64,000 nucleotides of DNA from Phycisphaerae bacterium (GTDB taxonomy: Bacteria > Planctomycetota > Phycisphaerae > UBA1845 > Fen-1342): positions 62,001 to 126,000 of the forward strand of contig JANQNU010000064.1 of assembly GCA_028279405.1 (NCBI GenBank), written 5' to 3'. Every line of letters begins with the position of its first letter. Within the stretch, counting starts at the first letter, position 1. A program made the translations under genes and the position numbers. The notes beneath the pieces were generated by a model. It had not been told where the DNA came from, made no database searches, and saw only the letters and a list, made by a program, of their open reading frames with translations. Below, in pieces: positions 1 to 18,302 of the stretch.

Positions 1-637
1 ATGCCCAGAGTGCGGGACGGAAGTTCCCGTCGCCCCCCCCATGGTACGGGCGGGAAGGCCATTCCTCAGGCAGTTGCTCTGGGCGCTCGCCGTCCTCATG
101 TTGATCCTTCCCGCGTTCACGTTGTTGACGAAACATGTAATCCCTGTGTCTGCTCAATACCGTCGCACCTTCGTGTTGATTCTCCATGAGAGCTATGAAC
201 GTTCTTTGAGCCTGACTGTTGCGGTCGTTGGTCGTTGTGTTCGGTTGGGTACAAGTGGACGGATATTGCAAGCGGAGCCTCCATCATCGGTGAGGTTATT
301 CTGGGGCTCCTGTCAGGAGGCTTTTGAATGGCGTCCTGCGGAGAGCAACGATCCGCAGCTAGGCGCTTGGTTGCAAACTCACGTTGATCCGGACCACCAA
401 CGCTTGCTAGCCTATTCCGATGAGCTTCAGCGCTTCGTTTTGGAGGCTGGAGCCGGCAAGACCAAGCCTCCTTTGTCCCCGTTCGTCGTGATGCCAAACT
501 TCTTTGTTTTCTCGGATCATCGCAGAGAATGGAATGACACAGCGTTTTTCGTAGGATTGATTGTGTGGTTCGTCGGGGCAAGGCATATCTGGCGATCATC
601 CCGAAGACCGTTGATTCGTCGAACGAACGATTCGTAG
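1..637 (+). CDS. Zinc-ribbon membrane protein, 5' end outside window
   Basis: The frame is already open at the window edge: codons from base 2 read CPECGTEVPVAPP and run into the ATG at 41, so that ATG is internal and the gene starts upstream. The CPECG matches the second knuckle of the two-knuckle ribbon in the protein at 2918-3604. After it come a hydrophobic segment (residues about 22-40 of the visible part) and, near the C-terminus, a second one (FFVGLIVWFVG) followed by basic residues. This suggests a membrane protein with two spans and a loop of about 130 residues between them. No enzymatic motif is visible. Its function is unknown. Short ribbon-plus-membrane proteins of this kind are frequent in planctomycetes. 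Confidence 0.7.
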   Translation, partial: CPECGTEVPVAPPMVRAGRPFLRQLLWALAVLMLILPAFTLLTKHVIPVSAQYRRTFVLILHESYERSLSLTVAVVGRCVRLGTSGRILQAEPPSSVRLFWGSCQEAFEWRPAESNDPQLGAWLQTHVDPDHQRLLAYSDELQRFVLEAGAGKTKPPLSPFVVMPNFFVFSDHRREWNDTAFFVGLIVWFVGARHIWRSSRRPLIRRTNDS

Positions 638-901
638 AAAGTTGGCACTCCAGGAGCGGCTTGTGCGGCTCCTATGGTCACCGGGAGTGGCTCGCCGGCC
701 TTCTCGAATACCCGGGCAGACGTGCCGCTCCTAATACGATCGGCGCCTCATCCGCGCTACGAACGTCTCAATCGCGTGTTATCTCCCCCGGATTTGTAAT
801 GGACGATCGGCGCCGCTATCATTTCGTTGGTGGGGTGTAGAGCTGTTGATCGGGCGCCCGTTATGGGCCCTCTTTGTAGTCTCGGCGTTCAGGAGCGGGG
901 A

Positions 902-2035
902 ATGAGAAGCAGAGTTGTTATCGGTCTCGGGATTGTCGTTGTCTTTGGCGTGTTGACACCGGTCGTTCATGCCGGCGCTAGCTTCCAGGGTGTTGGCGAT
1001 TTGCCGGGTTCGCGGTTTGACAGCACCGTCTCAGGCGTATCGGCGGATGGCCGTTTCGTTATCGGGCGAAGTCTCGGCAGCGAAGGCCACGTCGCGTTCC
1101 GCTGGTCGGAAGCCACGGGCATGGTAAGCCTCGGCGACTTTCCTGGAGGGAGCGCGACCAGCTTTGCAAACGGCATTTCTGGGGATGGGAGTGTCGTGGT
1201 CGGCATTGGGCTACGCGCATCCAGCATCAATGAGGCGTTCCGCTGGACCGAGCAAACCGGCCTAGTGGGGCTCGGCGATTTGCCCGGTGGGACCATTCGC
1301 AGTGGGGCTGAGGCAGTTTCGGCCGACGGGCGAGTTGTCGTGGGACAGAGTGATGCATCAAACGCAAACAACGGCGAGACTTTTCGTTGGACGGCCGATT
1401 CCGGGATGGTAGGCCTGGGCCAGTTACCTGGTGGCGACGAGTTCAATACCGCGCTCGGAATCTCGGCGGACGGAGCCGTTGTTGTTGGTACAGCGCGGAC
1501 AGCTCAGGGCCGGGTTGCTTATCGATGGACATCTGGTGCCGGCATGGAGAGCTTGGGGGATTTTCAGGGAGGGGCAACGGAGAGTCTCGCGTACGCCGCG
1601 TCGGCCGACGGATCGGTCATTGTGGGCGTGGGGCGCTCCGATCGTGGCCCAGAAGCTTTCCGTTGGACCGAAGACGGCGGCATGATCGGACTTGGTGACC
1701 TACCAGGTGAGCGTTTCGGCAGCCGAGCCAATGCGCTGACGCCGGACGGCTCGATCATTGTCGGTGAGGCAAACACCGGCGTGTTCCGCGAAGCGTTCAT
1801 CTGGGACGAGGTCAACGGAATGCGCTCCCTTCGCGATCTGCTCATCAACGAATACGGTCTCAACCTTGACGGCTGGACCCTCTTCGACGCCACCGGCATC
1901 TCCGCTGACGGACTCACGATCGTCGGCAACGGCTCGTTCGACAACCGACTCGAAGGCTGGGTCGTTCGCCTGCCGGAACCGAGCGCAGCGCTGCTACTAC
2001 TTACCGGCGCGTTAGCGATTCGACGGCGAGGTTAG
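902..2035 (+). CDS. HAF-repeat PEP-CTERM surface protein
   Basis: A 377-residue exported protein. I chose the ATG at 902 because a purine-rich GGAGCGGGG precedes it and it opens directly onto a signal peptide (MRSRVVIGLGIVVVFGVLTP, likely cleavage after VHA); the frame is open further upstream but without these signs. The body is a series of about seven repeats of roughly 45 residues with the pattern G(D/Q)LPGG...SADG..VVG....AFRWT..(G)MVGLGDLPGG, diagnostic of the extracellular HAF repeat family. The C-terminus has LPEPSAA, a hydrophobic stretch and RRR, a PEP-CTERM sorting tail. It is probably anchored or released at the cell surface by an exosortase that is not in this window. Its ligand or role is unknown. 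A second HAF PEP-CTERM protein lies at 53091-54194. Confidence 0.85.
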   Translation: MRSRVVIGLGIVVVFGVLTPVVHAGASFQGVGDLPGSRFDSTVSGVSADGRFVIGRSLGSEGHVAFRWSEATGMVSLGDFPGGSATSFANGISGDGSVVVGIGLRASSINEAFRWTEQTGLVGLGDLPGGTIRSGAEAVSADGRVVVGQSDASNANNGETFRWTADSGMVGLGQLPGGDEFNTALGISADGAVVVGTARTAQGRVAYRWTSGAGMESLGDFQGGATESLAYAASADGSVIVGVGRSDRGPEAFRWTEDGGMIGLGDLPGERFGSRANALTPDGSIIVGEANTGVFREAFIWDEVNGMRSLRDLLINEYGLNLDGWTLFDATGISADGLTIVGNGSFDNRLEGWVVRLPEPSAALLLLTGALAIRRRG

Positions 2036-2077
2036 CCCAAGTCCACGCGTCTTGTCCCCGTGGGCATGTTGCATCCA

Positions 2078-2749
2078 ATGAACCGGAAACGGAAATCAGG
2101 TCGGCTCTGGCTAACTGCCGGGGCCGGCCTTGCGTTTGTTGGCGCCGTCTTGGTTTCTGCTGTTGTTGCGAACAACGGCTGGGTATCGTTTGTGCCCACG
2201 AGCACGCTACTGCGATCAGGGAACTATAGAGAGGTCTTAAATCGATACACGAGCGAGTGGTATAGCGATCGTAAGGCAGACATGGTAGCAGCCTTCTCGG
2301 CCAATCGATTTCTGAAGGGAGAGCGATCCACTTATTTAGCTGAGCTCGTCAGTCATTCTCTTCGGGATGGCCGGTTTGACATGTCGACCCGCGCCGACTT
2401 GTTCAAGGCCGCGTTTACAGTAGGGATGGAACTTAATCGCGATTCGTGTGTATGGGCTTGGGCGCGGGTTGCGATGGGAAATGGCTCCTATGCCTTCGAC
2501 ATGCGTCCCAAGGAGATTCGGTTCGTGGAACGAAGCATTCAGTGTACAAGTAGCGATTACCTTCATAGCCTTGTGTGCTACGGGACCAGTGGGGCTACAT
2601 TCTGTTGCCCGGAGTTGGTCGGGCTTTCCAAGTCGAGTGTTTTTGTCGTCGAGATTGAGGTGATCGGGGATCCAAGTCTCCCCGCACCACCGGAGCCGTG
2701 GCTTGTGACGATTTCGGTTCCTGAAGGGGCCTTCGAAAGCGAGCCGTGA
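2078..2749 (+). CDS. Hypothetical membrane-anchored protein
   Basis: About 223 residues. The N-terminus is basic (MNRKRKSGR) followed by one hydrophobic segment (LAFVGAVLVSAVVA), so it is either an uncleaved anchor or a signal peptide. The rest is soluble, with a Cys-containing C-terminal half (FCCPELVG) but no motif I recognise. Start choice is uncertain: GTG 2060, ATG 2066 and ATG 2078 are in frame and none has a clear ribosome site; 2078 puts the basic residues directly before the hydrophobic segment. It follows the HAF protein on the same strand. Confidence 0.55.
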   Translation: MNRKRKSGRLWLTAGAGLAFVGAVLVSAVVANNGWVSFVPTSTLLRSGNYREVLNRYTSEWYSDRKADMVAAFSANRFLKGERSTYLAELVSHSLRDGRFDMSTRADLFKAAFTVGMELNRDSCVWAWARVAMGNGSYAFDMRPKEIRFVERSIQCTSSDYLHSLVCYGTSGATFCCPELVGLSKSSVFVVEIEVIGDPSLPAPPEPWLVTISVPEGAFESEP

Positions 2750-2917
2750 AGCCGAAAAGGCGAGGACTGGGCGTAGCTTCTCGGTCTCCGAAGAACATCA
2801 GAACCCTAATGGAGATCGGCAACTCGTCGGTGACGGAAACGTGACAGCGGAGCCTCAAGAGAACCGCTGCCGAATTCGAATTGGATCGGGGTACACCGTT
2901 CAGACATTCGTGATCAA

Positions 2918-3604
2918 ATGAGGAAGTGTCCGGAGTGTGGATATCTCTGCCTGCATGACCGCTGCCCCGAATGTGGGAGGCGCCTTTCAGCGTCTGACTT
3001 GTACACTCTCCAACTTCCTCGGATACCAAGAGGCCTGGTGCGGGCCGCCTGGCTCGCACTGACCATCTCCCTTGCCGCGATCGTGTTCTGGTCAGGGATC
3101 TGGGTCTATTGTGTGCCTACTCAAGGACTGCTCGTAATCTTGGACGGTGTCGCGCTTACCCGGCCACGCCTCGCCATCGGAGGAGAATTGGTTCGTCGCC
3201 TATCTGCTGGGCACGCGACGGGCGCTGAGGCGGAGCGTGCTTTGTTTGCAGTCCTAGGACGCAGAACGGAGGTAGTTGCTGCCTCGATCCGGACTATTAC
3301 GACTGGCGATCGCATCTTTCGCTTCACGTATGACGCACCCCTGCAACTTCATTCCCTGCCGGGACTAACGCTTGTGGAAACAGAGTCAGAGATCCGATTA
3401 GACGACCAAGTGCTCTGGGATACGATTATCGAGGACGGCGCGTCCCTGAGCATTGAATATGAATCGCTGTTGCGTGAGAGCATTGCGATAAGCGAGGCGC
3501 CTGTTGCCAGCTACCGGGCCTCGCATGAGCTTGTGAACGCCAAGGGGAAGGTAGTTCATCGTTGGCATACCGAGCTTGAGGTCCCGTGTACGTTCGTTGA
3601 GTAA
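2918..3604 (+). CDS. Zinc-ribbon membrane protein
   Basis: 228 residues. The N-terminus carries a complete two-knuckle zinc ribbon, CPECG (residues 4-8) and CPECG (residues 17-21), followed by one membrane segment (about 43-66, ALTISLAAIVFWSGIWV) and a soluble domain of about 160 residues with no recognised motif. The layout suggests a cytoplasmic metal-binding head and an exported C-terminal domain. The same head-plus-span plan is seen in the truncated gene at the left edge of the window. A stretch of about 170 bases without a gene precedes it. Function unknown. Confidence 0.7.
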   Translation: MRKCPECGYLCLHDRCPECGRRLSASDLYTLQLPRIPRGLVRAAWLALTISLAAIVFWSGIWVYCVPTQGLLVILDGVALTRPRLAIGGELVRRLSAGHATGAEAERALFAVLGRRTEVVAASIRTITTGDRIFRFTYDAPLQLHSLPGLTLVETESEIRLDDQVLWDTIIEDGASLSIEYESLLRESIAISEAPVASYRASHELVNAKGKVVHRWHTELEVPCTFVE

Positions 3605-3630
3605 GGGCGTTCGTACTGCTCGAACCAGTG
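3605..3630 (-). repeat. Degenerate copy of a tRNA-Val 3' end (possible att scar)
   Basis: Read on the minus strand, this stretch is CACTGGTTCGAG, CAGTA, CGA, ACGCCC. The 3' end of the tRNA-Val gene at 20842-20915 is CACTGGTTCGAG, TC, CAGTA, ACGCCC. The two agree at 23 positions with one 2-base gap and one 3-base insertion, and the order T-arm then acceptor is kept. It starts right after the stop codon of the preceding gene and marks the left side of the element that ends at tRNA-Lys. It could be the remnant of an attachment site; chance similarity through the shared T-loop consensus is the alternative. Confidence 0.4.
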
Positions 3631-3696
3631 GTCAGATACCGGGACAAGTGCCAGGGGGAGGGGGGTGAATATTTTCAGCACCCATTGAAATGTTGA

Positions 3697-3723
3697 CCGT
3701 TACTGCAACGTGACGGGTTTTTT
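3697..3723 (+). terminator. Rho-independent terminator
   Basis: A 7-bp stem CCGTTAC/GTGACGG (one T-G wobble) closes a 6-base loop and is followed by a run of six T. It lies 93 bases after the stop codon at 3604 and about 85 bases before the terminase gene, so it would insulate the mobile element from the chromosomal gene upstream. The flanking 205 bases (3605-3809) are AT-rich and carry no other gene. Confidence 0.55.
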
Positions 3724-3809
3724 CGCGAAATTGGCGTTTTTGCGCGACCCGAGATAGAATCGGTAAATGTTAGGGTGTTCGAATCACAAGGCCATGGAGG
3801 GTCAATGTC

Positions 3810-4286
3810 ATGCCTCGGGGACGAAAACCAAAACCGCGAAACCTGAAACTACACGACGGTAACCCCGGCAAGCGACCGATCGGAGAGGAACCGCAGACGG
3901 CGAATCTAACGGGCCCGCCGCCGCGATCGCTCGGTCCGGGAGGTCGTACGCTGTGGACGACTGCCGTTGACGCCTGGGGCGCGATCGGCGTCCTTCAGGA
4001 AACCGACCGTGTCGTGCTGCACACCGCGTGTGAGCTTCGAGACGAGGTCGACCAGTACACGACGATAATCAACGAGCCAGATTTCGAGCCCTACCAGCAA
4101 AGCCATCGGGGCGGTCTTATGCTGCATCCGGCTATCCGGCAGCGGGTTGCGACGAGGACGCTGTTGCTTCGTTTCCTGTCTGAGCTCGGAATGACCCCGA
4201 CGTCACGTGTCCGGCTCGGCTCCCCGACTCCGGGCAACGCGGTGGACGAACTCGATGCATTCGCTCGCAGCCGATCGTCCACCTAA
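3810..4286 (+). CDS. Phage terminase small subunit, P27 family
   Basis: 158 residues. The N-terminus MPRGRKPKPRNLKLHDGNPG followed by KRP is the typical opening of P27-family small terminase subunits (basic tail, then the LHDGNPGKRP motif), and the remainder (LWTTAVDAWGAIGVLQETDR..., then ...HPAIRQRVATRTLLLRFLSELGMTPTSR) follows the usual helical core. Small terminase subunits recognise pac or cos DNA and recruit the large subunit for packaging. A GGAGG ribosome site lies 9 bases before the ATG at 3810. No large terminase, portal or capsid gene accompanies it, so the protein could only act by redirecting another phage's packaging motor, as in phage satellites. The opposite end of the element carries the integrase. 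Confidence 0.85.
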   Translation: MPRGRKPKPRNLKLHDGNPGKRPIGEEPQTANLTGPPPRSLGPGGRTLWTTAVDAWGAIGVLQETDRVVLHTACELRDEVDQYTTIINEPDFEPYQQSHRGGLMLHPAIRQRVATRTLLLRFLSELGMTPTSRVRLGSPTPGNAVDELDAFARSRSST

Positions 4287-4377
4287 CGAACGAGCGCAGT
4301 GCATCGATCGTACGACAAGCAAGAACGCCTCACGGCAGCATATGGCGAGAGTGGTATTCGAGCTGGGAGTTCCCTAA

Positions 4378-5634
4378 ATGACCGGTCGCGATCCTCAAGA
4401 GAGCACAGCCAACAGCACCAATCCATCGGCGGCGCAGATCACCGTGGAGCCCGAAGCGGTGCAAAGACTACGGGAACAGGCGTCGGAGATCGCCGCAAGG
4501 TTGCCGTCGGATGTGGCGTCTGTTCTGCGATCGGTCTACGACCTTCACAGTGGGCGCCGAATGGTGCGATTCGTTCGTGATCGTGATGATGACGACGATG
4601 ACGGCCGCATGCGTACGTATGAGGGTCGTCAGATCAAGCCGCGCCACGAGTGGTTTGGGTTCGAATGCCACTTCACTGACGAACTGGCGGCGAACGAAGA
4701 GCTGATCCGGTTTCACCGGTGGTTCATGCGTCGCATGTCGCGTCGGCTCGGCATCAAACAGCGCCGGATCCGATTCCGGACAGGGGTTCCCACGGCGATG
4801 CTGGTCGCCGAGTTTGGGGTCGAGGCGGAAGCAGCCGTTGAATCGCTTTGCAACAAGGGATTGCTGCGTTTCGAAGAGGGACCGCGACCTGGAGGCCTTA
4901 TGAGTTGTGCCGTTGGTTGTCCGGACGGCAGCGAGTTGATCGTTCTTTCCCGGCAATACGAGGTCTACGAGATGCCATTTCACCTGCTCCGGATCTATCG
5001 GCGAAGGAATGGCACTGACGAGTTGTGCGTGCGCGACTCGGATGGAATCCCTCCGGACTGTGCGTACGACGATGACGAACCCGCCCAACGTGGTTTTCGG
5101 CGTGTTCTCATGACGCCGCTCGGGCAAGAGGTCGCCGAGCTTCTGGAGTTCGCTCCATATCCGCGAGCCCGCTTGGTGGGCCAGGCTGACAACGTAGCGA
5201 CCAAACCTCCTAGCGACGCTGGGGTTCCGGAGCGGAAAGAGCCAGTGGCCAAGGACCGTTCTGGTGTTGCGGGCAATTCCGGTCGTACGAGGATCAGCCG
5301 AGAGGCGCGCAAAGACGCGATCCGAGCCTTCCTGGCACATCGACCCGATGCCACACAGCGCGAAATCGCTGCGGCCCTGGGGATCTCGGTTGGCTACGTG
5401 AACGAGCTGATTAGCGGGGATGAAAGCCTGACGGGCTGGAAGGGCGAGCGGCGTCGCCAGCGGAAGAAAGCGGGCAGAAGCCCGGCGGAGTATCAGCCGG
5501 AGATGGTCGATCGGAGGCGCGATCGCGAGTACGACGACATCAGCGTAACAGACAACGAATCCGAGCGCCTCGAGACGATCGAAGAACTCAAGCGCCAGCA
5601 ACAGGCGGATGACGCCTCGTCTTGTGTTCGGTAG
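4378..5634 (+). CDS. HTH-containing protein of unknown function
   Basis: 418 residues, ATG with GGAG 8 bases upstream. The middle has an acidic run (DRDDDDDDG, about residue 70). At about residues 318-347 there is a clear helix-turn-helix (ATQREIAAALGISVGYVNEL), followed by a highly charged tail. The N-terminal 280 residues match no family I know. It sits between the terminase gene and an operator-like repeat cluster, so a regulator of the element or a replication-initiator role is possible; this rests on position only. A long open frame on the opposite strand (4468-5601) is judged a shadow. Confidence 0.7.
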   Translation: MTGRDPQESTANSTNPSAAQITVEPEAVQRLREQASEIAARLPSDVASVLRSVYDLHSGRRMVRFVRDRDDDDDDGRMRTYEGRQIKPRHEWFGFECHFTDELAANEELIRFHRWFMRRMSRRLGIKQRRIRFRTGVPTAMLVAEFGVEAEAAVESLCNKGLLRFEEGPRPGGLMSCAVGCPDGSELIVLSRQYEVYEMPFHLLRIYRRRNGTDELCVRDSDGIPPDCAYDDDEPAQRGFRRVLMTPLGQEVAELLEFAPYPRARLVGQADNVATKPPSDAGVPERKEPVAKDRSGVAGNSGRTRISREARKDAIRAFLAHRPDATQREIAAALGISVGYVNELISGDESLTGWKGERRRQRKKAGRSPAEYQPEMVDRRRDREYDDISVTDNESERLETIEELKRQQQADDASSCVR

Positions 5635-5645
5635 AGAGTTGCACC

Positions 5646-5735
5646 TTGTTCGGTGAACAAACGGGCTTGTTCAGTGAACACGAAATTCTCCGAACTGCCC
5701 GGAAAAAATAGAGCAACTCTCGTTGTTCAGTGAAT
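5646..5735. promoter_or_regulatory. Cluster of TTGTTC-NNN-GAAC palindromes (operator or iterons)
   Basis: Three copies of one motif lie in the gap between the 418-residue gene and the small HTH genes: 5646-5660 TTGTTCGGTGAACAA (perfect 6+6 palindrome), 5667-5680 TTGTTCAGTGAACA, and 5723-5734 TTGTTCAGTGAA (degenerate right arm). The first two are 21 bases apart, two turns of the helix. The arrangement fits a repressor or activator binding array controlling the alpA-primase-integrase genes, or iterons of a replication origin next to the primase gene. Confidence 0.6.
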
Positions 5736-5808
5736 TTCTTCTGATGGGTGAGCAGTGCTCGCAACGGGCGAGCGCGTCGAGGCTGACCCTGAAACCAAGG
5801 AATTCACG

Positions 5809-6042
5809 ATGGGGCAACGCAGCCTTTCCAAGCCTCCCCGGGAAGTACGGACCGTCGGCGTCATTGCCCGACTTCTCGGGGTCCCTGTTCATCGCGTCCA
5901 ATATGTGCTGAGAACGTGCCCGGATATCTCGCCGGCGGCGCGCGCCGGCCGTTTGCGGCTGTTCGATGCGGCTGGCGTGTCGAGGATTCGGCACGAGCTG
6001 AATCGGATCGACGCTCGCCGAGAAAGTCGGGGTGGGCGGTGA
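5809..6042 (+). CDS. Small HTH DNA-binding protein
   Basis: 77 residues from the ATG at 5809, which has AAGGA 8 bases upstream; the frame is open further upstream without a ribosome site. The sequence VRTVGVIARLLGVPVHRVQY..., then ...AARAGRLRLFDAAGVSRI, is the pattern of MerR-like winged HTH proteins of mobile elements (HTH, basic wing, then a short helix). Its stop codon overlaps the start of the next gene (GTGA), so the two are translationally coupled. Likely a regulator or excision factor of the element. Confidence 0.65.
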   Translation: MGQRSLSKPPREVRTVGVIARLLGVPVHRVQYVLRTCPDISPAARAGRLRLFDAAGVSRIRHELNRIDARRESRGGR

Positions 6043-6302
6043 CCAACTCGATAGAACCACTTGTACCGGAGCCCGTCGAGGCGATCGCCCCTCCCGAGTC
6101 GGCGCTACTCACCGTCCGAGAGGTGGCGCGGTTGCTGAACGTCGGCGAGCGCTCCGTCTGGCGCTGGTCGGACGTGGGGCTGATGCCGCCGCCGATCGCG
6201 ATTGGCCGCTCGCGGCGTTGGCGTTGGACCGAAGATCTGCAACCCTGGATCCACGCCGGCTGTCCACGGATCCGAGAACAAAAGGCGCACGCCGATGGCT
6301 AG
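6039..6302 (+). CDS. AlpA-like excisionase / HTH_17 regulator
   Basis: 87 residues starting with GTG at 6039, which overlaps the preceding stop codon (GTGA). The core LLTVREVARLLNVGERSVWR, then WSDVGLMPPPIAIGRSRRW, is the helix-turn-helix of the AlpA/excisionase family. Such proteins activate integrase or direct excision in satellites and integrative elements. The gene runs into the primase: the last 8 bases overlap the primase start. Confidence 0.8.
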   Translation: MTNSIEPLVPEPVEAIAPPESALLTVREVARLLNVGERSVWRWSDVGLMPPPIAIGRSRRWRWTEDLQPWIHAGCPRIREQKAHADG

Positions 6303-9027
6303 GCAGATTTCGGGCGACGCGACGACAACACCGTTCGAGCGGTTCGAGGCGGCGATGCGCGGTCTGGGGCGGCCATTGCAACAGGTTAGTCGCGGCAACT
6401 ACATTGCACGTTGCCCGGCACACGATGATGAGCGACCATCGCTCTCTGTGGCGGTCAATGACAACAGCACGTTGCTGCTAACGTGTTTCGCCGGCTGTCC
6501 GTTTGACCGAATCATGCTCAGCGTCGGGCTGCCGATTCAGTCGGCGTTCCCAGACTATCACGAGAGACCCGCGAACAACGGCCGCACCGACGGTGCTTCA
6601 GTGGTGTCGTCGCCCGAGACGCCGAACGTCGGCAGTGATACCGCGCCCGTTCCGGCTCCGAAGCGTGTCGTGGACGAGCCTGGGAACACGCGCCGACGTC
6701 CGACGCAATACCCCAGCCTGGAGGCGGGGGCTCGGGCGGCATCGCGTCTCGTGCAGCGCGCAAACAAGCTGTCGGAGCCGGTGACGCCGACTGTGTTCGA
6801 GTACGCGCTCGCGGGCGAGATCATCGCCGCTTCGCTGCGGTTCGACCTACCGGCGGATTGCGCGCGGTCCAAAGATGTTCGGCCGCTCTCATGTGCCGAA
6901 GATGGCTGGATGATCGCGGCACCGCCTGCACCGCGGCCCCTGTACCGTGTGGATGAGCTTGTCGATGATGAGCCGATCTACGTGGCTGAAGGTGAACCGT
7001 GCGCGGATGCTCTTCGACGGCTAGGACTGCTCGGGACCACTTCGTTCGGCGGCTCAAAGGCACCGCATCAATCCGATTGGTCGCCGACTGCGGGACGAGT
7101 GGTAATCATCATCGTGGACCGTGACTCGGCCGGCGAGGCGTATGGAGCGAAGGTGGCCCAACTCGCGCTCGAGGCCGGCGCGCGGCGAGCGTTCATCATC
7201 CGTCCGTGGGAACATCCAGCTTGGACCGATCTGGCCGAGAGTGGCGACATCGCCGACCTCTTGGAGCGACAAAACGAGACGATTGAAACGACGCAAGCGA
7301 AGTTGGCCGAACTTGTCGCACGAGCGAGGCCTGTCGAACAGGGGGCCGTCGAGGGCGACGATAGCGATGGAAAGAAGAAGCCGCCCACGACCGCGCAACA
7401 ACTCGTGAAGCTTGCCAGTTCGCTGTACACGTTCGGGAACTGTCGAGGCGAAGTGTTCGCGATCGTGCGCGGGGGGCCGAATGTCGCGATCGGGTTCAAG
7501 GGATCACAGAGCGAACTGCGGTCAGCACTGAGCTACGAGTATCTCAAGGCGACCGACAAGGTGCCCAACAGTTCGGCACTCGGTGATGCGCTCTCCGCAT
7601 TGGCCGGCGCGGCACAGTGTGTTGAACCGACGGAGATCCACACTCGTGTTGCCTGGCACGACGGCCGGATCGTGGTCGATCTGGGTGACAAGACGGGACG
7701 GGCGGTCATCGTCGGTTCTGGCGGTTGGTCGATCGTGGATCGGAGCCCGGTGACCTTCAAGCGGACCGCGCTGACGAAGGCGCTGCCGGTGCCAACCGTG
7801 GGAGGCAACGTGAATCAACTGCGTGAGCTGCTGAATGTGAACGATACGACTTGGCGGCTCATCGTCGGGTGGATGGTGGCGGCGCTCGTTCCGGATATCG
7901 CGCATCCGGTCTTGATGCTCGGCGGCGAGCAGGGCACAGGCAAAACGACCGCGGCGACGTTGATCGCCGGTCTGATCGATCCGAGCAACGCGACCCATCC
8001 GCAGCCAAAAGACCCCGAGTCATGGGCCATAGCGGCCGCGGGCTCGTGGATCATCGTTGTTGACAACATCTCGTCCATCCCGGCTTGGTGGAGCGACGCT
8101 GTGTGCAAGACCGTCACCGGCGACGGTTGGATTCGCCGAACGTTGTATACCAACAGCGAGTTGACCGTCTTGAGTTTTCGCCGATGCGTTGTTCTGACAT
8201 CGATCGACGCCGGCTCGTTTCGTGGCGATCTGGCCGACCGAATGCTGCTTGTCGACCTGGAGACAATCGGCGACGAACGCCGACGAGGGGAACGTGAGCT
8301 GCGCGAGCGCTACGCGGAACTCGCGCCTGCGCTGTTTGGCGCGCTGCTCGATCTGCTGGCACGTATGCTGACGAAGTACCATGATGTTACGCTGGAACAC
8401 GCGCCCCGAATGGCGGACTTCGCGCGCGTGCTGGCGGCACTGGACGCGGTATCGCCGAACGAACCGTCGGCGCTGGAGGCCTACCTTCAGCAGCGAGACC
8501 GGATCGCGGGCGATGTCGTGGCGGGCGATCTCGTCGCGACGGCAATCGCCGATCTCGTCGAACGAGAGGGTGGTTTCGACGGGTCGGCGACTGAACTGCT
8601 CGAGCGCGTTCGACCGCGAGCCGAGCAATCGCAACGACGGTTCCCGCAATCGGCGAGCACGCTCGGAAGCGCGATCAAACGCGTCGCGCCGGCACTCAAA
8701 CGGCTGGGCATCCTCGTCGAACACGTCCGCACGGCCGGCGGCAATCGCGCTCGTCGGATCGTCATTCGGAAAGCGCTCGGAGATAGCCGTCCCCCCAGTC
8801 CCACCGTCCCCGATCAGCCGGCGCTGGACATTAGTGAGGTTGATCGCGGGACGGCGCCGGGACAGCCAGGGTATTCGGCCGGCAGACCCTGTCCCGCGGG
8901 CGAGTCCGCTGGTGCCGACGAATCGCTGCTTCGGGACGGGCGGGACAGCCGGGACACCGATTCGCTGCCGCTTTCTGACGGCTGTTCGAACACCGCTGAT
9001 CGGCGAACGTCGCGGCGCGGGACGTAA
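6295..9027 (+). CDS. Primase-helicase (CHC2 zinc finger, Toprim, ATPase)
   Basis: 910 residues. Domains in order: a CHC2-type zinc finger (C40, H43, C64, C68; IARCPAHDDERPSLSV), a Toprim-like region about residues 215-320 (PIYVAEGEPCADALRRLG, then IIIVDRDSAGE), and a helicase-type P-loop ATPase with Walker A GGEQGTGKTT at about 543-552 and an acidic Walker B-like WIIVVDN. The C-terminal 300 residues resemble the tail of D5/phage-plasmid primase-ATPases. It should initiate replication of the excised element. The ATG at 6295 overlaps the alpA-like gene by 8 bases, so translation is coupled. A long opposite-strand frame (8020-9123) is a shadow. Confidence 0.85.
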   Translation: MARQISGDATTTPFERFEAAMRGLGRPLQQVSRGNYIARCPAHDDERPSLSVAVNDNSTLLLTCFAGCPFDRIMLSVGLPIQSAFPDYHERPANNGRTDGASVVSSPETPNVGSDTAPVPAPKRVVDEPGNTRRRPTQYPSLEAGARAASRLVQRANKLSEPVTPTVFEYALAGEIIAASLRFDLPADCARSKDVRPLSCAEDGWMIAAPPAPRPLYRVDELVDDEPIYVAEGEPCADALRRLGLLGTTSFGGSKAPHQSDWSPTAGRVVIIIVDRDSAGEAYGAKVAQLALEAGARRAFIIRPWEHPAWTDLAESGDIADLLERQNETIETTQAKLAELVARARPVEQGAVEGDDSDGKKKPPTTAQQLVKLASSLYTFGNCRGEVFAIVRGGPNVAIGFKGSQSELRSALSYEYLKATDKVPNSSALGDALSALAGAAQCVEPTEIHTRVAWHDGRIVVDLGDKTGRAVIVGSGGWSIVDRSPVTFKRTALTKALPVPTVGGNVNQLRELLNVNDTTWRLIVGWMVAALVPDIAHPVLMLGGEQGTGKTTAATLIAGLIDPSNATHPQPKDPESWAIAAAGSWIIVVDNISSIPAWWSDAVCKTVTGDGWIRRTLYTNSELTVLSFRRCVVLTSIDAGSFRGDLADRMLLVDLETIGDERRRGERELRERYAELAPALFGALLDLLARMLTKYHDVTLEHAPRMADFARVLAALDAVSPNEPSALEAYLQQRDRIAGDVVAGDLVATAIADLVEREGGFDGSATELLERVRPRAEQSQRRFPQSASTLGSAIKRVAPALKRLGILVEHVRTAGGNRARRIVIRKALGDSRPPSPTVPDQPALDISEVDRGTAPGQPGYSAGRPCPAGESAGADESLLRDGRDSRDTDSLPLSDGCSNTADRRTSRRGT

Positions 9028-9149
9028 CGAGGTATCAACTGGCAACAATTGAACGTGGTACATGCGCGGTGCACGAGGTATCCTCGGCCCGGACTGAGGC
9101 AAGTTGATCGCGGCAGCGGTCATCGAACCGCATCGATGAGAGGTGGGAC

Positions 9150-10994
9150 ATGAGCTTGGTTCGGCAGCAATACACCAAACCGTTACCGAAGGACGCGGAG
9201 CTTTTCACGCAGGATGGCCAGCAATACGCACGCTGGAGGGGGCGCGACGGGAAACGAAAGACTGCCCGAGTCACGACCGGGCGCGACGGTCAGCCGCGGA
9301 TTGTTCTGAGGTCCAACAAGCTCAGCGCGCAATACCGCAACGGCGCCGGCCGGGTCGAACGGGTTGCGACGGGCTGTCGGACCAAGGAGGCGGCCCAGAC
9401 GCTGCTTCACGAGTTGAACGTCCGGGCCGACAAGGTCCGCGCGGGTGCGTGGACCGCTGCCGAAGACTCGGTATTGGATCATCAGGCAACGCCGATCGGC
9501 GAACACGTCGATGCGTATCTCGATGCGCTCAAGAACAAACGCGGCAAGGGCGGAAAACGGGCAGTCAATCGTCAGCACTACGGCAATGTTGCAACGCGTC
9601 TTCGACGGATCGTGGCAGAATGCAAATTCACGGCGCTTCGCGACCTCAGCCGCCCGGCGATGGAACGTTGGGCGGACCTGCGAGAAGCCGAGGGGATGGG
9701 CGCGCGAACATTGAACGGCCACCTCGCAGCGTTGTGCGCGTTCGGCAACTGGTGTGTCTCGGCGAACCGCCTGGTTTCGAACCCGTTTGCACGGCCTCCG
9801 AAACGCGATGAGCGGACTGACCCGCGCCGGAAACGCCGGGCGCTGACTGAAGATGAGCTGCGACGCTTACTGCGAGCCGCCAAACTGCGGCCGATTGCCG
9901 AGCAGGGCCGCGCAAAGGTCGTCATGGCCGACAAACCTCGCGATCCGAAGAGCCGGCGGACATGGAAGCGCGAGACGCTAACCGCAGACAACCTGGAGTC
10001 AGCCTACCGCCGAGGCTTGGAAGCGCTTCAAACACGCCCCGATGAACTGGCCAAACTTGAGCGCGCCGGCGCCGAGCGAGCACTGATCTACAAAACGCTC
10101 GTGTTAACCGGGCTTCGCAAGAGCGAACTGGCAGCGCTTACGATTGGCTGTGTCGAGCTGGAAGGGCAAGTCCCGATCGTTCGGCTCGATGCAAATGCGG
10201 CAAAGTCGGGGCAGGCGGCGGAGATTCCGCTACGGGCCGACCTCGTGGAAGACCTGCGGTCACATTTGCGCGTCCGACTGCAACGCGCACAAGATGCGGC
10301 ACGCAATGCGGGCGAGCCGTTGCCGGTACACCTATCGAGTCGCGATCGGCTGTTTGTCGTGCCTGACGGGCTCGTGAAGATCATGGATCGCGATTTGCTG
10401 GCGGCGGGGATCGCGAGAATCGTTGTCGGGGAGGACGGCGCCGAACGGATCGACAAGCGCGACGAGCGCGGGCGAACAGTCGATGTTCACGCGCTACGGC
10501 ACACATTCGGCACGCACTTGAGCAAGAACGGCGTGGCCCCACGAACAGCCCAGGCGGCAATGCGACATAGCTCGATCGAGCTGACGATGAATACGTATAC
10601 CGACCCGCGACTGCTCGATCTTTCCGGTGCGCTGGAGCAACTACCGGCTTTGCCGCTCGACGATGGCAATGGCGGTGACCGAGCGTTGGCGACGGGCACG
10701 GACGATGCGCCGTCGAATTACTTGGCTGACCGGATCGATCGCGCGGGCGAGCGCAACGACGCCCATGCGTCAGCAGCGCGAACGCTTACACCAATGCTTA
10801 CACGAACGCCCGGCAATTCGGGTGCATTCGAGGCGCTGAGCGGCAAGTCGGACGAATTGCTCGATCGCCGCGATCGGCGCGCAAGTGTTGCTTGTGACGA
10901 ACGTAAGCAACACGTGGCAAGAGGGGACAAAATGAGGACGCTGGGACTCGAACCCAGGACCCACGGCTTAAAAGGCCGCTGCTCTACCGACTGA
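9150..10994 (+). CDS. int: Tyrosine integrase of the tRNA-Lys element
   Basis: 614 residues, ATG preceded by GAGGTG. The N-terminus (YTKPLPKDAELF, then GCRTKEAAQ) is of the type common in planctomycete integrases, followed by a SAM-like core-binding domain and the catalytic domain with R323 (GLRKSEL), H447 and R450 (HALRH), H473 (MRHSS) and nucleophile Y483 (NTYTD). The tail is unusual: from base 10933 the reading frame enters the tRNA-Lys gene in antisense and stops inside it, so the last 20 residues (ending GLEPRTHGLKGRCSTD) are antisense tRNA. It is clearly homologous to the integrase at 20861-22627. Confidence 0.92.
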   Translation: MSLVRQQYTKPLPKDAELFTQDGQQYARWRGRDGKRKTARVTTGRDGQPRIVLRSNKLSAQYRNGAGRVERVATGCRTKEAAQTLLHELNVRADKVRAGAWTAAEDSVLDHQATPIGEHVDAYLDALKNKRGKGGKRAVNRQHYGNVATRLRRIVAECKFTALRDLSRPAMERWADLREAEGMGARTLNGHLAALCAFGNWCVSANRLVSNPFARPPKRDERTDPRRKRRALTEDELRRLLRAAKLRPIAEQGRAKVVMADKPRDPKSRRTWKRETLTADNLESAYRRGLEALQTRPDELAKLERAGAERALIYKTLVLTGLRKSELAALTIGCVELEGQVPIVRLDANAAKSGQAAEIPLRADLVEDLRSHLRVRLQRAQDAARNAGEPLPVHLSSRDRLFVVPDGLVKIMDRDLLAAGIARIVVGEDGAERIDKRDERGRTVDVHALRHTFGTHLSKNGVAPRTAQAAMRHSSIELTMNTYTDPRLLDLSGALEQLPALPLDDGNGGDRALATGTDDAPSNYLADRIDRAGERNDAHASAARTLTPMLTRTPGNSGAFEALSGKSDELLDRRDRRASVACDERKQHVARGDKMRTLGLEPRTHGLKGRCSTD

Positions 10995-11005
10995 GCTACG
11001 TCCTC
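10933..11005 (-). tRNA. tRNA-Lys (UUU)
   Basis: On the minus strand the sequence folds as a complete cloverleaf: acceptor GAGGACG/CGTCCTC with A discriminator, D arm AGCTCAGTCGGTAGAGC, anticodon stem GCGGC/GCCGT around loop CTTTTAA (anticodon TTT), and T arm CTGGGTTCGAGTCCCAG. CCA is not encoded. The 3' end faces the mobile element, as expected for integration at a tRNA 3' end, and the integrase gene overlaps it by 62 bases. Confidence 0.95.
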
Positions 11006-11056
11006 TAGGCTGCTCAGCATCGCGCCGCTACGGTCCGTCGCGGCGCAAGACTGGAA

Positions 11057-11062
11057 ATTATA
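11057..11062 (-). promoter_or_regulatory. Possible -10 box of the tRNA-Lys promoter
   Basis: A perfect TATAAT on the minus strand lies about 50 bases upstream of the tRNA-Lys 5' end. The matching -35 region (around 11080-11085, CTGGCT) is weak. No gene is visible in the remaining gap up to 11192. Confidence 0.4.
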
Positions 11063-11192
11063 CGCGGACGATAGAGCAAAGCCAGCCGCACCCGCGAGGC
11101 CTGTCGGCTAGCAGGATGGCGCGATGACCCGTCAGCGTCAAACGCCTTCCTCAGGGACGATTCGGTCAAACGTTGCAGCATAACCCGGGCGG

Positions 11193-12335
11193 TCAGGTGC
11201 GTTCGACGAACACCTTCTGAGCGGCGGCCACGCCAGCGCCGACATCAAACCCATGTCCGAGCGAGAACAGCGTATGCTCCAGGGCACCGATACACCCGAG
11301 CATATCGACGCTGTCGATGAAGCCCATGTGCGAGAAACGCACGATCTTCCCGCTAAGATGGTCCTGGCCGCCCGCTGTGTGAATCCCGTACTTATCGCGC
11401 AGCGCCTTGCGAAGCTTCGATTCGTCCACGCCCGCCGGGACGTTGAGAGCCGTCACGGAATCCGAGGGAGACTTGGAGAAGACCTCAACGTTCATCGCTT
11501 GGGCCGCCGATCGCGTGGCGTTTGCCATCGCAGCCACGCGCTTCCACGCGTTCTCCAATCCCTCGTCGAGCAGCATGCGCAGTGCGACACGCAGGCCACG
11601 GACGAGCAGATGCGCGGGCGTATAGGGAGTGTCGTTCTTCTCCGCCGCCTTGCGGGCCTGGTTATAGTTCAGATAGAAGCTCGATTGCTGCGGATTCTGC
11701 TCGATGACCTTCCAAGCGCGTTCGCTGACACTGGCGAAGCCCAGGCCCGGTGGCAACAAAAGCGCCTTCTGCGAGCCGGTGATCGCGACATCCACACCCC
11801 AGTCATCGATCCTTAGCGGCAGCGCACCGGCGGATGTAATGCAATCAGCCAGCAACAGCCTGTCATGCGCACGGCAGACACGACCGATGGCCTCCAGATC
11901 GCAAGCGGTGGCCGTCGACGTCTCGCTGTGAACGACCATAACGGAGGTGATAGCCGGGTCTTTCTTGAGGTAGTCTTCGATCACGCCGGGCTCGACCGCG
12001 TGACCCCATTCGACCTTGTGGCGCACGGCGGGAATCCCGAACTGGTCGGCAATCTTGCCCCAACGCTCACCAAACTTGCCGCCTTCGATCGTGAGGATCT
12101 TCGAACCCGTTGGATTGCACCCGACGATTGCGCCTTCTGCGGTTGCTGTTCCCGAGCCGGTGAAGATCAGGACATCGTTGGCTGTCAGGAAGATCTGTTT
12201 CAGTTGAGTGGTGCATTCCGCGAAGAGTTCCTTGAACCACGCCGTGCGGTGATGTTCGAACGGACGTGCCATCTCGATCAATACTTCTTCCGGCACAGTG
12301 CAGGGACCGGGGGTAAACAAACGGATCTTCTTCAT
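11193..12335 (-). CDS. Class V aminotransferase (alanine-glyoxylate type)
   Basis: 380 residues from the ATG at 12335, which has AAGGA about 13 bases upstream; the open frame extends 27 codons further without support. The opening LFTPGPCTVPEEVL is typical of alanine-glyoxylate / serine-glyoxylate aminotransferases, with GSGTATAEGAI, HSETSTATACDLEAIG and the PLP lysine in ITGSQKALLLPPGLGF (about residue 189). It would transfer an amino group from alanine or serine to glyoxylate or another 2-oxo acid. The exact substrate cannot be read from the sequence. Confidence 0.88.
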   Translation of the reverse strand: MKKIRLFTPGPCTVPEEVLIEMARPFEHHRTAWFKELFAECTTQLKQIFLTANDVLIFTGSGTATAEGAIVGCNPTGSKILTIEGGKFGERWGKIADQFGIPAVRHKVEWGHAVEPGVIEDYLKKDPAITSVMVVHSETSTATACDLEAIGRVCRAHDRLLLADCITSAGALPLRIDDWGVDVAITGSQKALLLPPGLGFASVSERAWKVIEQNPQQSSFYLNYNQARKAAEKNDTPYTPAHLLVRGLRVALRMLLDEGLENAWKRVAAMANATRSAAQAMNVEVFSKSPSDSVTALNVPAGVDESKLRKALRDKYGIHTAGGQDHLSGKIVRFSHMGFIDSVDMLGCIGALEHTLFSLGHGFDVGAGVAAAQKVFVERT

Positions 12336-12614
12336 GACTGCTCTCATCCTTTCTGGGTCGGAGTCGCCCCTCACGCGCCGACGGCGGACCGAACGCCGCG
12401 ACCGTGCATGCACCAAGTCAACCGCTGTCTATTGTAGAGCCAGCGGCGCCGTCACGCGAACTCCAGAGCGTGTCTGTCAGGGGGTGTGCGCCACGGCCCG
12501 TCGCCGGCGTCCAGCGTCGGGCCGCGCTCGGGATCGTCACGATGATGGCCGGGCGCGGCTACCCGGCCATAGATTCGCAGCAGGCTGCAGGCTGCTGTCG
12601 TCGCTTGCTACCCG

Positions 12615-15218
12615 CTACGGGCAGCTTCCGCTGGTGACGGCCGTGACGAAGTTGTTGATGTCGCCAACGGAGACGGTCCCGTCGTCGTTCGTGTCGTTGG
12701 CGTCGATGAAGCTGCAGTCGGTGCCGGCCAGCGCATCCCAGGCCGCTTCGCCGCCGGTGATGGCAGTGACGAAGTAGTTGATGTCGCCGACCGAAACGGC
12801 GCCGTCACAGTTGGAGTCACCGCACAGGGTGTTTTCGCACTCGTCGGGAATCTCGTTTGCGTTGAGGTCGAGGCTGGTCGGCGCGCCGATGTACTCGACT
12901 TCAATCCGCAGGTAGGACGGCTCGTTGCAGATGTCGCCGACTTCATCGCTGGGCGCGACGGTGACCGTCATGGCGCCGTCGACGATGTTCGCGTTCCAGG
13001 TCGCTGCGGGAACGACCAGCGAGTCGAGCGACGCCGTCGCGCAGTCACCAAATCCGGAAACGTAGATCGTGCCGACACTGTTGCCGTTCAGCAGTACGTT
13101 CATGAATTCGGTCGTGAAGTTGATATCCGAGCGCGCCGCGAAATCCAGTGTGACGTCGGACGTTGCGGTACGCGCCGGGTCGATCACGAGTGACTGCGGC
13201 GTCTCGAACGCGATCGGCGTCATGTCCTGCGACGCAATGTTGATTTCAGTCTGGAAGTCACAGGCATCCGGGACGCCGTTCATGTTGCAGTCGTCGACCG
13301 TCCCGTCCAAGATCTCTTGCGCGTCGGCGATGTTGTTCCCGTTGCAGTCCGACATGGTCGTGAAGCTGACCACTCCCGGCGAGGCCTGCGTGCTTCCATT
13401 GTCGTTGTGCGCCGTCACCCGCCAGTAGTACGTGCGCCCCGGGACCAACGCCGAGAGTGAGACATACTGATTGAGACCGGTCGTCTCGTTGATCTCCGGA
13501 TTGACGAAGTTGTCGTCGTCGTCCACGACGATTGTGTAGGTCAGCGCATCGGGCGCAATCTCCCACTGGAAGAACGGCGTAAGGAAGGCGTCCGTTGCCT
13601 CGTTCGCCGGGAAGGTTGTCGAGAATGCACCCGGAACCGGCGGCGGGTTGAAGTAATAATCAATCGCATCCCGGGCCTGCACGATGCCGTAACCGTAGAA
13701 TTGATCGAACCCACTGGTTCCCCGGTCTTTCGCGCTCTGCTGGAGAATCGTGCGCACCTCGTCCGACGTGAGCGTGTCGTCGACCGACAGCAACAGGGCA
13801 GCGACACCTGCCGCGAGAGGGCTGGCGAACGACGTGCCCTGGATGACGGTCCAGTTACCGTTGGAGTAACCGGCGGTACCGGTCCGATCGGTCGTCCAGA
13901 TGGAGACGCCGGGAGCCATGAGTTCGAGCCCGGCGCCGAACGTGCTGAAGCTTGCGCGCCCACCGGTGTGGGTGACCGCGCCGACCGCGATCACCGTGGG
14001 GAAGCCTGCCGGGAACCCGACGTCGCCTTGCCCCGAGTTGCCGCTACCGGCGAAGTGAACCATCCCCGATTCGAAGTACGTTTGCGCGTACTTGGCCCGT
14101 AGCGACGACGAATCGCCGATCGACAAGCTAGCATTCGTTACCCGTGCTCCAATTGACTCGCCCCAGGTGAGTGCAGCAATCATGGAGCCCGGGTTGATTG
14201 TGATCATGTCAGAACATGGAATCTGCGAGATTGCCACGTAGGCACCGGCCGACTTGCAGGCCGGGGCGATTCCGGTGACGCCGGTCCCGTTGTTGATGAC
14301 TGCCGTCGCGCATCCCGCGACCGCGGTCCCGTGGTTGTCGCATTGGTTAAACGGGTTACCGTTGGTACTGCTGCCGGCAAACGAGTTTCCCGGAACCTGG
14401 TTGATATCGGTGTGGTTCTGTTGAACGCCGGAGTCCATGATGAGCACGATAATGTCCGCGTCACCCGTGGTCGTATCCCACGCTTCAGGTGCATCCAGGT
14501 CCATGTCGGCCGTTCCGCCAGTCTGGCCGATGTTGTGCAGACCCCATTGTTGCGGATACAACGAATCGTTCGGCGTCAGCGTCGAGCGGCCGGTGAAGAT
14601 CGCATCGGACTCGGCGTACAGCACCTCCGGTCGGCCGGCTAGTGCGTTAACTTGGGCCAGGACGTCAAAACCATTCTGGCTGGGGCTTCGAAGGTAATAG
14701 ACGTCGGGCATGTCGCCGAAATCTTCGGTGACGATCGTTCCGCTGATGTACTCGTCCAGCAATGCCTGTCGTTGGGCCAGCGGTACGTCGGCGCGAAACG
14801 CCACGATTACGTTCGGTGTGATCCATAACGGCAGGCCGTTGGGTTGCAGGAAAACCGGCGAAACGAAGTCCACGGGCATCGTGTCGGCCAGCCGCGAGAC
14901 CATTGTTTCGGTCGTCTCGGCTGACAAGTCGACGCCGGCGGTTCGCGCGACAGCCCAGCCCGGCCGAATGTTCGTCGACACGTCCGAAAGACCGACAGCA
15001 CCGGCCATCACCGACGCCACCGAAGGATCGGTCGTGTCGACCGTCGCTTCCTCGAGGATCGCGACCCGCTTCGAATCCAGCGTGAGCGGGACACGGTTTT
15101 TGCCCACAGAGTAGTAGTACTGCTTGGTCGGCTGCCCGCCGACAGCAACCGTCGCCAGGGCGACAGTTGTAACCAAGCATATCGACATCGAGACGAGCGA
15201 AGCCGGTCCGGACTTCAT
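12615..15218 (-). CDS. Secreted subtilisin-like (S8) protease with dockerin
   Basis: 867 residues. The ATG at 15218 has AGGAGG 8 bases upstream; a TTG two codons earlier is too close to that site. A signal peptide (about 1-28) leads into a prodomain-like region and the S8 catalytic domain with Asp in VLIMDSGVQQNHTD (about 261), His in CDNHGTAVAG (about 296) and Ser in GTSFASPLAAG (about 463). A fibronectin-III-like domain (about 533-616) follows, then Asn/Asp-rich linkers and a C-terminal pair of dockerin/EF-hand repeats (CGDSNCDGAVSVGDINYFVT and DTNDDGTVSVGDINNFVT). It is an exported endopeptidase. The dockerin-like tail may bind calcium and act in surface attachment rather than in a cellulosome. 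Confidence 0.9.
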   Translation of the reverse strand: MKSGPASLVSMSICLVTTVALATVAVGGQPTKQYYYSVGKNRVPLTLDSKRVAILEEATVDTTDPSVASVMAGAVGLSDVSTNIRPGWAVARTAGVDLSAETTETMVSRLADTMPVDFVSPVFLQPNGLPLWITPNVIVAFRADVPLAQRQALLDEYISGTIVTEDFGDMPDVYYLRSPSQNGFDVLAQVNALAGRPEVLYAESDAIFTGRSTLTPNDSLYPQQWGLHNIGQTGGTADMDLDAPEAWDTTTGDADIIVLIMDSGVQQNHTDINQVPGNSFAGSSTNGNPFNQCDNHGTAVAGCATAVINNGTGVTGIAPACKSAGAYVAISQIPCSDMITINPGSMIAALTWGESIGARVTNASLSIGDSSSLRAKYAQTYFESGMVHFAGSGNSGQGDVGFPAGFPTVIAVGAVTHTGGRASFSTFGAGLELMAPGVSIWTTDRTGTAGYSNGNWTVIQGTSFASPLAAGVAALLLSVDDTLTSDEVRTILQQSAKDRGTSGFDQFYGYGIVQARDAIDYYFNPPPVPGAFSTTFPANEATDAFLTPFFQWEIAPDALTYTIVVDDDDNFVNPEINETTGLNQYVSLSALVPGRTYYWRVTAHNDNGSTQASPGVVSFTTMSDCNGNNIADAQEILDGTVDDCNMNGVPDACDFQTEINIASQDMTPIAFETPQSLVIDPARTATSDVTLDFAARSDINFTTEFMNVLLNGNSVGTIYVSGFGDCATASLDSLVVPAATWNANIVDGAMTVTVAPSDEVGDICNEPSYLRIEVEYIGAPTSLDLNANEIPDECENTLCGDSNCDGAVSVGDINYFVTAITGGEAAWDALAGTDCSFIDANDTNDDGTVSVGDINNFVTAVTSGSCP

Positions 15219-15682
15219 CAGCAAGGCCTCCTGCAGCGGTTTACGCTACACCGTCCAAAAGAATTCAATGTCGGAATCCGAAGCGGCGGGTGCGCGGAAA
15301 TGTCGTCATAGACCACGTCGAACGACGTTACACCCGGCCAACCGTCAATCCCAGCCTCGAGCGGACCCGCGCGCCAATCTCCCGGTCTTGCGGCAGGTTA
15401 CATTTTTGCATGAGACCGCTCTCGAATCGGCTCTGGCTGCGCCATGCGGACCCTCCGAGCTTCGTCAACCACCCGTCGAATCCGACACCGACGCCGACCA
15501 CCCAAATTATAGCACGACGGACCGGCGGATCGAAAAATGAGTTCACAACACCCGCCAAATCCGCCTTCTCGGACGAAAAAGCGGGCTCCACTGCCTCGCA
15601 TGCGCATCGCTGTGTCCGATAACCAAAGCGTGAGCGCTGACAAGGATGCGGGCGTATCGTTGGTTCATTCGGGTGGTCAGCG
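15219..15682. other. Intergenic region between protease and DinB gene
   Basis: 464 bases between the start of the S8 protease (leader and AGGAGG at its left end) and the stop of the DinB-like gene. Short frames on both strands look like chance frames. I see no RNA gene, hairpin-plus-T terminator or repeat. Confidence 0.5.
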
Positions 15683-16231
15683 TTACTGCTGGCCGGTGGG
15701 GGGTGTGCCCCAGACCCGTTCGTTGTACGCGTCGGACCCCCCGCGCGGGATGGAGAGCGTCGTCCATTGCTGGTCGGCGAGGATCCGCGCGACTTGGACG
15801 ATCTGGCCGACGTGGTAGCCATAGTGATCGATCTGGCGGAGTGTCGCGTCGAGGAGCGTGTGCGGCTCGCCGCGGATGGTGAGCGGGCGACGAAGGTCAG
15901 TGTCCGACAACGGCGCCAGCGCCGCGAAGAGGACGGCCCAACCGCGCTCCCAGCAGTCGACGATCTCGGCCCGTGTCTGGAATTCATCGACAAACTCCTC
16001 GTCCCGCCGTCGATTTGGCTTTTCGCCGTCGGTCGTGAAGATGTCGGTCCATCGGCTGCGCATATTGCCTGCCATGTGCTTCATGATGACCGCAACCGAG
16101 TTGGTCTCGGGATGCAGTGCCGTGCGCAGTTGGGAATCATCGAGTTGGGTGATGGCGCGCTCGGCCAGCGCCTTCTGTTTCGCGAAGATCGCTTCGAACG
16201 CGGCTATGGTCGTGCGGTCGGACTCGCTCAC
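15683..16231 (-). CDS. DinB-like / DUF1572 family protein
   Basis: 182 residues from a GTG at 16231 with AGGAG 8 bases upstream (frame open to an ATG at 16312, but without ribosome site). The helical pattern and the spaced histidines (MKHMAGNMRSRW about residue 50, and RQIDHYGYHVGQIVQVAR near 145) are typical of the DinB/DUF1572 four-helix fold, in which three His bind a metal. Members include thiol-dependent transferases, but many have no known reaction. No operon partner is evident; the ABC-F gene follows on its upstream side. Confidence 0.75.
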   Translation of the reverse strand: MSESDRTTIAAFEAIFAKQKALAERAITQLDDSQLRTALHPETNSVAVIMKHMAGNMRSRWTDIFTTDGEKPNRRRDEEFVDEFQTRAEIVDCWERGWAVLFAALAPLSDTDLRRPLTIRGEPHTLLDATLRQIDHYGYHVGQIVQVARILADQQWTTLSIPRGGSDAYNERVWGTPPTGQQ

Positions 16232-18268: not shown

Positions 18269-18302
18269 TGTTCTTTCATCGTGCCCCGCGAGTCCGTCAG
18301 CG

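Follow-up and report, generated by a model that had tools for sequence, protein, structure and literature searches.

The locus analyzed here raises the question of what kind of mobile element would place a small terminase gene (terS) and a tyrosine integrase gene on the same strand next to a planctomycete tRNA-Lys. The original prediction, made for the 64-kb stretch of DNA under study (the window), was a minimal PICI-type phage satellite of about 7.3 kb, with seven genes on one strand between a terminator and tRNA-Lys. Answering the question requires the ends of the element, the nature of its genes and the sequence upstream of terS, as well as its relationship to other mobile elements in the same genome and in related genomes. 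The features discussed below are collected in Table 1.

Table 1. Features of element A, the neighboring element B, the sister element C and the resident prophage. Positions are those of the window unless a contig is named; negative numbers lie to the left of the window on the host contig, C46.
Feature	Position	Strand	Basis or remark
Element A	C46:54098-72977; window portion 1-10977, continuing left to -7902		att pair
attL copy	-7902 to -7859 (C46:54098)		44-nt perfect repeat
RHS/YD-repeat protein, 2,247 aa, with dockerin-like stretch	-6926 to -183, outside window
Small zinc-ribbon/membrane protein gene	-139 to 637 (3' part, 1-637, inside window)	+
Exported repeat protein, PEP-CTERM-like end	827-2035	+	ORF and sequence; similar sequence in L081
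Two small membrane/zinc-ribbon proteins	2060-2749 and 2918-3604	+
HK97/P27-type cos-like packaging site, just upstream of terS	3653-3734	+	Profile, pairwise match, pattern survey
terS, P27/HK97-type small terminase, 158 aa	3810-4286	+	PF05119 E 1.6e-10; PHROG 83 E 7e-26
HTH protein, 418 aa, probable regulator	4378-5634	+
Three operator-like palindromic copies of TTGTTCNGTGAACAA, the last one weak	5646-5737
MerR-like small HTH protein	5755-6042	+	Weak profile match; 47% homologue in element C
AlpA-like HTH regulator/excisionase	~6039-6302	+	PHROG 66 E 3e-8; 68% homologue in element C
CHC2/Toprim primase with VapE-like ATPase domain	~6295-9027	+	PHROG 6088 E 1e-21
Tyrosine integrase	9150-10994	+	PF00589 E 4e-17; clade of tRNA-targeting integrases
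attR core, inside tRNA-Lys	10934-10977		44-nt perfect repeat
tRNA-Lys(TTT), target gene	10933-11005	-
Element B integrase	20861-22627	-
Element B AAA_25/RepA-like replication protein	22703-24982	-
Element B RHS protein, 2,217 aa	24999-31652	+
Sister element C, 21 kb, same genome	C21:12811-33833		At tRNA-Gly
Prophage	C87:16210-53668		47-nt att repeat in tRNA-Val(TAC)

The last codons of the integrase gene are the antisense of tRNA-Lys. A whole-genome search with the 44-nt att core GAGGACGCTGGGACTCGAACCCAGGACCCACGGCTTAAAAGGCC, which constitutes the 3' end of the tRNA, returned exactly two copies, and these form a perfect direct repeat. The window holds no second copy of the tRNA-Lys end; the sole one lies 7.9 kb to its left. 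Because the two copies are 18,836 bp apart, the element (element A) measures about 18.8 kb and not the 7.3 kb first estimated, with 18,880 bp including both cores and a predicted excised circle of 18,836 bp. The left end is real, since a gene located there (-7715 to -7383) is homologous to the left-end genes of other elements: a 33-aa segment of its product is 64% identical to that of element C, and L414 and L415, both bounded by att copies, have homologues of 59 to 61% identity at their left ends. Just outside attL (C46:53973-54097) lies a fragment of about 125 bp from the 3' end of an integrase gene, with 95% identity to that of element A, and element C shows the same remnant pattern outside its own attL (C21:12650-12810, approximately 80% identical). 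These integrase remnants suggest that a related element formerly occupied each of the two tRNA sites. We also sought an empty site in relatives by means of the flanking kinase gene, and its homologues there did not lie beside any tRNA gene.

All core genes of element A are on the plus strand and read toward int, and the MerR-like, AlpA-like and primase genes overlap by a few nucleotides, in an operon-like arrangement. Of the seven genes originally proposed, six are supported, namely those for terS, the HTH protein, the MerR-like and AlpA-like proteins, the primase-ATPase and the integrase; tRNA-Lys(TTT) was likewise where it had been expected. The C-terminal part of the HTH protein is 39% identical to the equivalent gene in element C. 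The operator repeats are also real: TTGTTCNGTGAACAA is perfect at 5646, carries one mismatch at 5667 and recurs as a weak, half-matching copy at 5723, and no further site with one mismatch or fewer was found in the 5.6-Mb genome. As originally reported, element A contains no detectable capsid, portal, tail or large-terminase gene, nor did we find head, tail or lysis remnants within the att pair, with Pfam and PHROGs applied to the core and Pfam to the cargo. This cargo adds approximately 11.5 kb and consists of a large RHS/YD-repeat protein, an exported repeat protein and small zinc-ribbon/membrane proteins, so that "minimal" is not an apt description of the element. A homologue (61%) of one of the zinc-ribbon/membrane proteins (-139 to 637) is encoded close to an RHS gene of the relative L426.

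The small terminase of element A (terS_A) is full-length and retains the conserved residue at each of the ten alignment columns that do not vary among 52 sequences. A terS sequence profile gave no true match to PDB chains, and a fold comparison was therefore required. The best fold match of the AlphaFold model (mean pLDDT 81.8) was the HK97 small terminase, with a Z score of 9.0 over 93 residues, compared with 5.6 for the next unrelated row. A Z score of 9 is modest by itself for a helical protein; it is the gap to the next row, along with the PHROG 83 sequence match, that makes the HK97 fold assignment convincing. The concern that terS might be too degraded to fold was thus dispelled. In a tree of 80 terS sequences, terS_A is sister to the terS of the C87 prophage (SH-aLRT 93) and sits on the longer branch; the two proteins are 41% identical, and the branches between them add up to 1.9 substitutions per site.

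We compared the sequence upstream of terS_A with that upstream of the C87 prophage gene, the genome's sole other P27 terS. This revealed an 82-nt colinear match at window positions 3653 to 3734 with a score of 29; 2,000 dinucleotide shuffles reached no more than 20, and 486 genomic windows no more than 25. Outside this block, no DNA similarity between island and prophage beyond chance and no operators common to both were found. The block consists of a G-run, GACCG and then CGCGAAATTGG (3724-3734). When the underlying pattern (a G-run followed 45 to 75 nt on by CGCGAAAT) was searched for in 3.95 Mb of fetched sequence, 29 matches were obtained against 1.7 in shuffles, a count that measures association and not genome-wide frequency, as the fetched sequence is enriched for terS loci. 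All matches were on the terS strand and preceded terS by about 0.1 to 6.6 kb, and most had GACC in between. A cos profile was also built exclusively from non-planctomycete P27 phages, among them HK97 and Pantoea phage AH07, each joined over its record ends. It matched window positions 3652 to 3735 end to end (E 1.5e-4), and this site ranked second among all targets. The C87 prophage site gave a weak and partial match to this profile (E 3.5) and is instead supported by the pattern and the pairwise match. A borderline match (E 0.055) was also seen on the minus strand of L413 (positions 9251 to 9305), in a 7.3-kb element without terS.

In AH07, GACC and CGCGAAAT flank the junction of the record ends, CGCGAAAT lying approximately 17 to 24 nt after the left end, and HK97 TerS binds 15 to 29 bp downstream of the cos cut (PMC11331095). 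On these data, the block is best read as an HK97-type cos site, with CGCGAAATTGG as its predicted TerS-binding part. The terminator originally placed at 3697 to 3722 falls inside this conserved block, and a cos-like site is the more likely meaning of the sequence.

A helper prophage with a matching P27 terS and large terminase had been proposed as something to look for, and the C87 prophage, with its sister terS, has both. Its genes include int, an excisionase-like gene, RusA, a methylase, a RecE-like exonuclease, tape measure, neck, capsid, portal, protease, terL and terS, and by eye an HNH-like gene beside cos. Its terS is the closest to terS_A of the 80 compared and its cos region is also the most similar, and on these sequence comparisons the prophage is our leading helper candidate. 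The predicted prophage circle is 37,412 bp and two island units would be 37,672 bp, a ratio of 1.007, although this near-equality may be due to chance. The prophage occupies tRNA-Val(TAC) and the island tRNA-Lys; in another genome, an integrase of the island family (L428) is found at tRNA-Val(TAC).

Element C has the HTH, MerR and AlpA genes, the primase N terminus, the integrase (67% identical) and the left-end gene in common with element A, and we found neither terS nor cos in it. An anti-phage defence cluster in its cargo comprises DUF499, DUF3780, DUF1156 methylase and PLD-helicase genes, which encode PADLOC-listed defence proteins. Element C also carries a zeta-toxin-like gene and a GIY-YIG-like gene (PADLOC PDC-S14). 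A search for the same arrangement at other tRNA genes of related genomes, as originally suggested, was successful for the integrase, which is present in 31 of 114 genomes across the order, at tRNA-Lys, Gly, Thr, Arg, Pro, Val and Glu. Most family elements, element C among them, have no terS, indicating that packaging is not a fixed trait of the family.

In the integrase tree, the element A integrase falls within a nine-member clade (support, 100) that includes the att-bounded elements L413 (7.3 kb), L414 (9.3 kb) and L415 (10.1 kb). None of these three islands contains head or tail genes, and the structural genes in close relatives that would have spoken for a prophage were not seen within the clade. 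L415 (positions 8393 to 18518) encodes a GpA-type large terminase alone, with no other virion gene. Outside the clade, L441 (7.4 kb, bounded by a 43-nt repeat) carries Prim-Pol, AlpA and P27 terS; a compact 7.4-kb terS element therefore exists, but in a cousin and not in element A. Across six att-bounded relatives, PHROGs searches detected no head-shell, tail or lysis families among the best 25 of 31 matched, and the named matches were terminases, replication proteins, a kinase and a sigma factor. Related integrases (about 38 to 50%) also occur on IMG/VR contigs, several of them 32 to 40 kb, and given contigs of this size, integrases of the broader family may be used by full phages too; the integrases from viral contigs were placed in clades other than the nine-member clade. 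Three of the IMG/VR contigs (L453, L455 and L457; 37 to 40 kb, with about 11 kb read per contig) encode integrases 42 to 49% identical to that of element A.

Several other loci were noted during the survey. The window itself contains an element with an integrase of the same family at tRNA-Val(CAC) (element B, 20842-31652), for which a second att copy was not found. Islands at L186:4728-12402, L180:6772-14627 and L257:291-4341 carry P27 terS together with an HK97-type major capsid gene, and local profiles detected neither terL nor portal in them; by analogy with Ccm of cos SaPIs, this capsid gene may act to change capsid size. A compact island-like locus in another family of the phylum (L195:5192-13840) contains int, a methylase, AlpA, P27 terS, an ERCC4-type nuclease and a primase.

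The best explanation for the locus is the one first proposed, a phage satellite of the PICI type, to which the cos-like site, the resident prophage with its sister terS and the compact tRNA-borne relatives can now be added. Specifically, element A is probably an 18.8-kb integrative satellite that is packaged at its own cos by an HK97-type helper. This reading builds on features observed directly, namely the att pair, the gene content, the cos-like site, the modeled fold of terS, its kinship and that of cos to the C87 prophage, and satellite-like close relatives. Points against it are the terS identity of just 41% to the prophage, a length that exceeds that of typical PICIs, the lack of terS in most of the family and the occurrence of related integrases on phage-sized viral contigs. 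The integrase inserts the element at the 3' end of tRNA-Lys and restores the tRNA, as the 44-nt att copies show. The AlpA, MerR-like and HTH proteins would control excision together with the operators, and the primase/ATPase would replicate the excised circle. Element A would make no particles of its own; during the activity of an HK97-type helper, the island TerS would bind the island cos and recruit the helper large terminase, leading island DNA into helper capsids. Speculatively, the DNA could be packaged as a dimer, as two units (37.7 kb) come within 1% of the C87 prophage genome length.

Could element A instead be an ordinary tRNA-borne integrative island, replicating and moving independently of phages, with cos-terS captured as cargo and at most occasional transduction? 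Such an origin would agree with the lack of terS and cos in the sister element and most family members and with the large share of the element that is cargo. It fits poorly with a terS that is full-length and keeps its invariant residues and modeled HK97 fold despite deep divergence, that adjoins a complete cos-like site, and that has counterparts in other family members with terS or a lone TerL; we consider it improbable. Far less credible still is a decayed HK97-type prophage in which the whole stretch from terS to the regulator genes has disappeared. The order cos-terS-...-int is what a single internal deletion would be expected to leave, and related integrases are found on phage-sized viral contigs, but element A has intact genes, perfect att copies and no structural remnant by the searches above, and the islands most closely related to it are att-bounded and have neither head nor tail genes. 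Its core is also common to element C, which has no packaging gene, and the prophage reading is weakened by the finding of a close relative that shares this core but lacks structural genes.

If element A is a satellite, its helper might be another HK97-type phage of the host and not the C87 prophage, which is a sub-case of our preferred explanation and not an alternative to it. With 41% terS identity and 1.9 substitutions per site between the two proteins, more closely related phages could have gone unseen, and PICMI satellites have known virulent helpers (PMC10803314); against this stands the rank of the C87 terS and cos region as the nearest of those compared. We give a different helper somewhat less than an even chance. 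More broadly, element A could represent a planctomycete lineage of tRNA-borne satellites that swap packaging modules (TerS with its own HK97-type cos, a GpA-type TerL by itself, or neither) and have defence or very large secreted RHS cargo, with element A entering the capsid of the co-resident 37.4-kb helper as a dimer; this fuller conjecture is tentative, and we hold it to be rather unlikely. In the open literature searched, we found no description of phage satellites in planctomycetes. As one genome contains the probable satellite with its cos-like site, its sister element and a plausible candidate helper, helper dependence is directly testable. The cos-like site of P27/HK97-type phages offers a sequence mark for packaged satellites in other phyla that needs no experiment, and the family shows terminase genes exchanged among otherwise similar islands.

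PICIs are defined by the joint presence of an integrase, a replication module and a master regulator, by genes orthologous to known PICI genes, by the absence of phage structural and lytic genes, by att sites never used by prophages, by a size of ~12 to 15 kb, and by helper-dependent induction and specific packaging (PMC6092414). Element A combines an integrase, a replication module and a master regulator, and no structural or lytic genes were detected in it (Pfam and PHROGs for the core, Pfam for the cargo). At 18.8 kb, with relatives of 7.3 to 21 kb, its size is outside the PICI range; because not every defining property is present, it is a variant of the satellite kind, compared here by gene content and not filed as a PICI. 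Like SaPIs and Gram-negative PICIs, it has an att-site integrase, AlpA/MerR-type regulators and a primase-replicase without structural or lytic genes, and terS is present in some PICIs as well (PMC6092414). Unlike these 12- to 15-kb islands, it has all genes directed toward int, a terS with its own HK97-type cos, and a large secreted RHS cargo. The cos-type SaPIs SaPIbov4/5 contain a phage cos site through which a helper can package them (PMC5052747), as element A contains a cos-like site, but they keep only the 3' end of a pac-type terS and have the capsid-size gene Ccm, whereas element A encodes an HK97-type TerS in full and has no capsid-like gene. The PICMI satellites of Vibrionaceae are alike in their int-alpA-primase core, in the defence cargo of some and in their small size, the type element being ~6 kb (PMC10803314). 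They integrate next to fis, and their six-gene type element lacks terS, whereas the element A family uses tRNA genes (tRNA-Lys for element A) and element A has terS and cos. The HK97 packaging module (HNH-cos-terS-terL) resembles element A in TerS family, in fold as modeled, and in the layout of cos upstream of terS; element A differs in having no TerL, HNH, portal or capsid gene, and TerL and an HNH-like gene are present in the C87 prophage.
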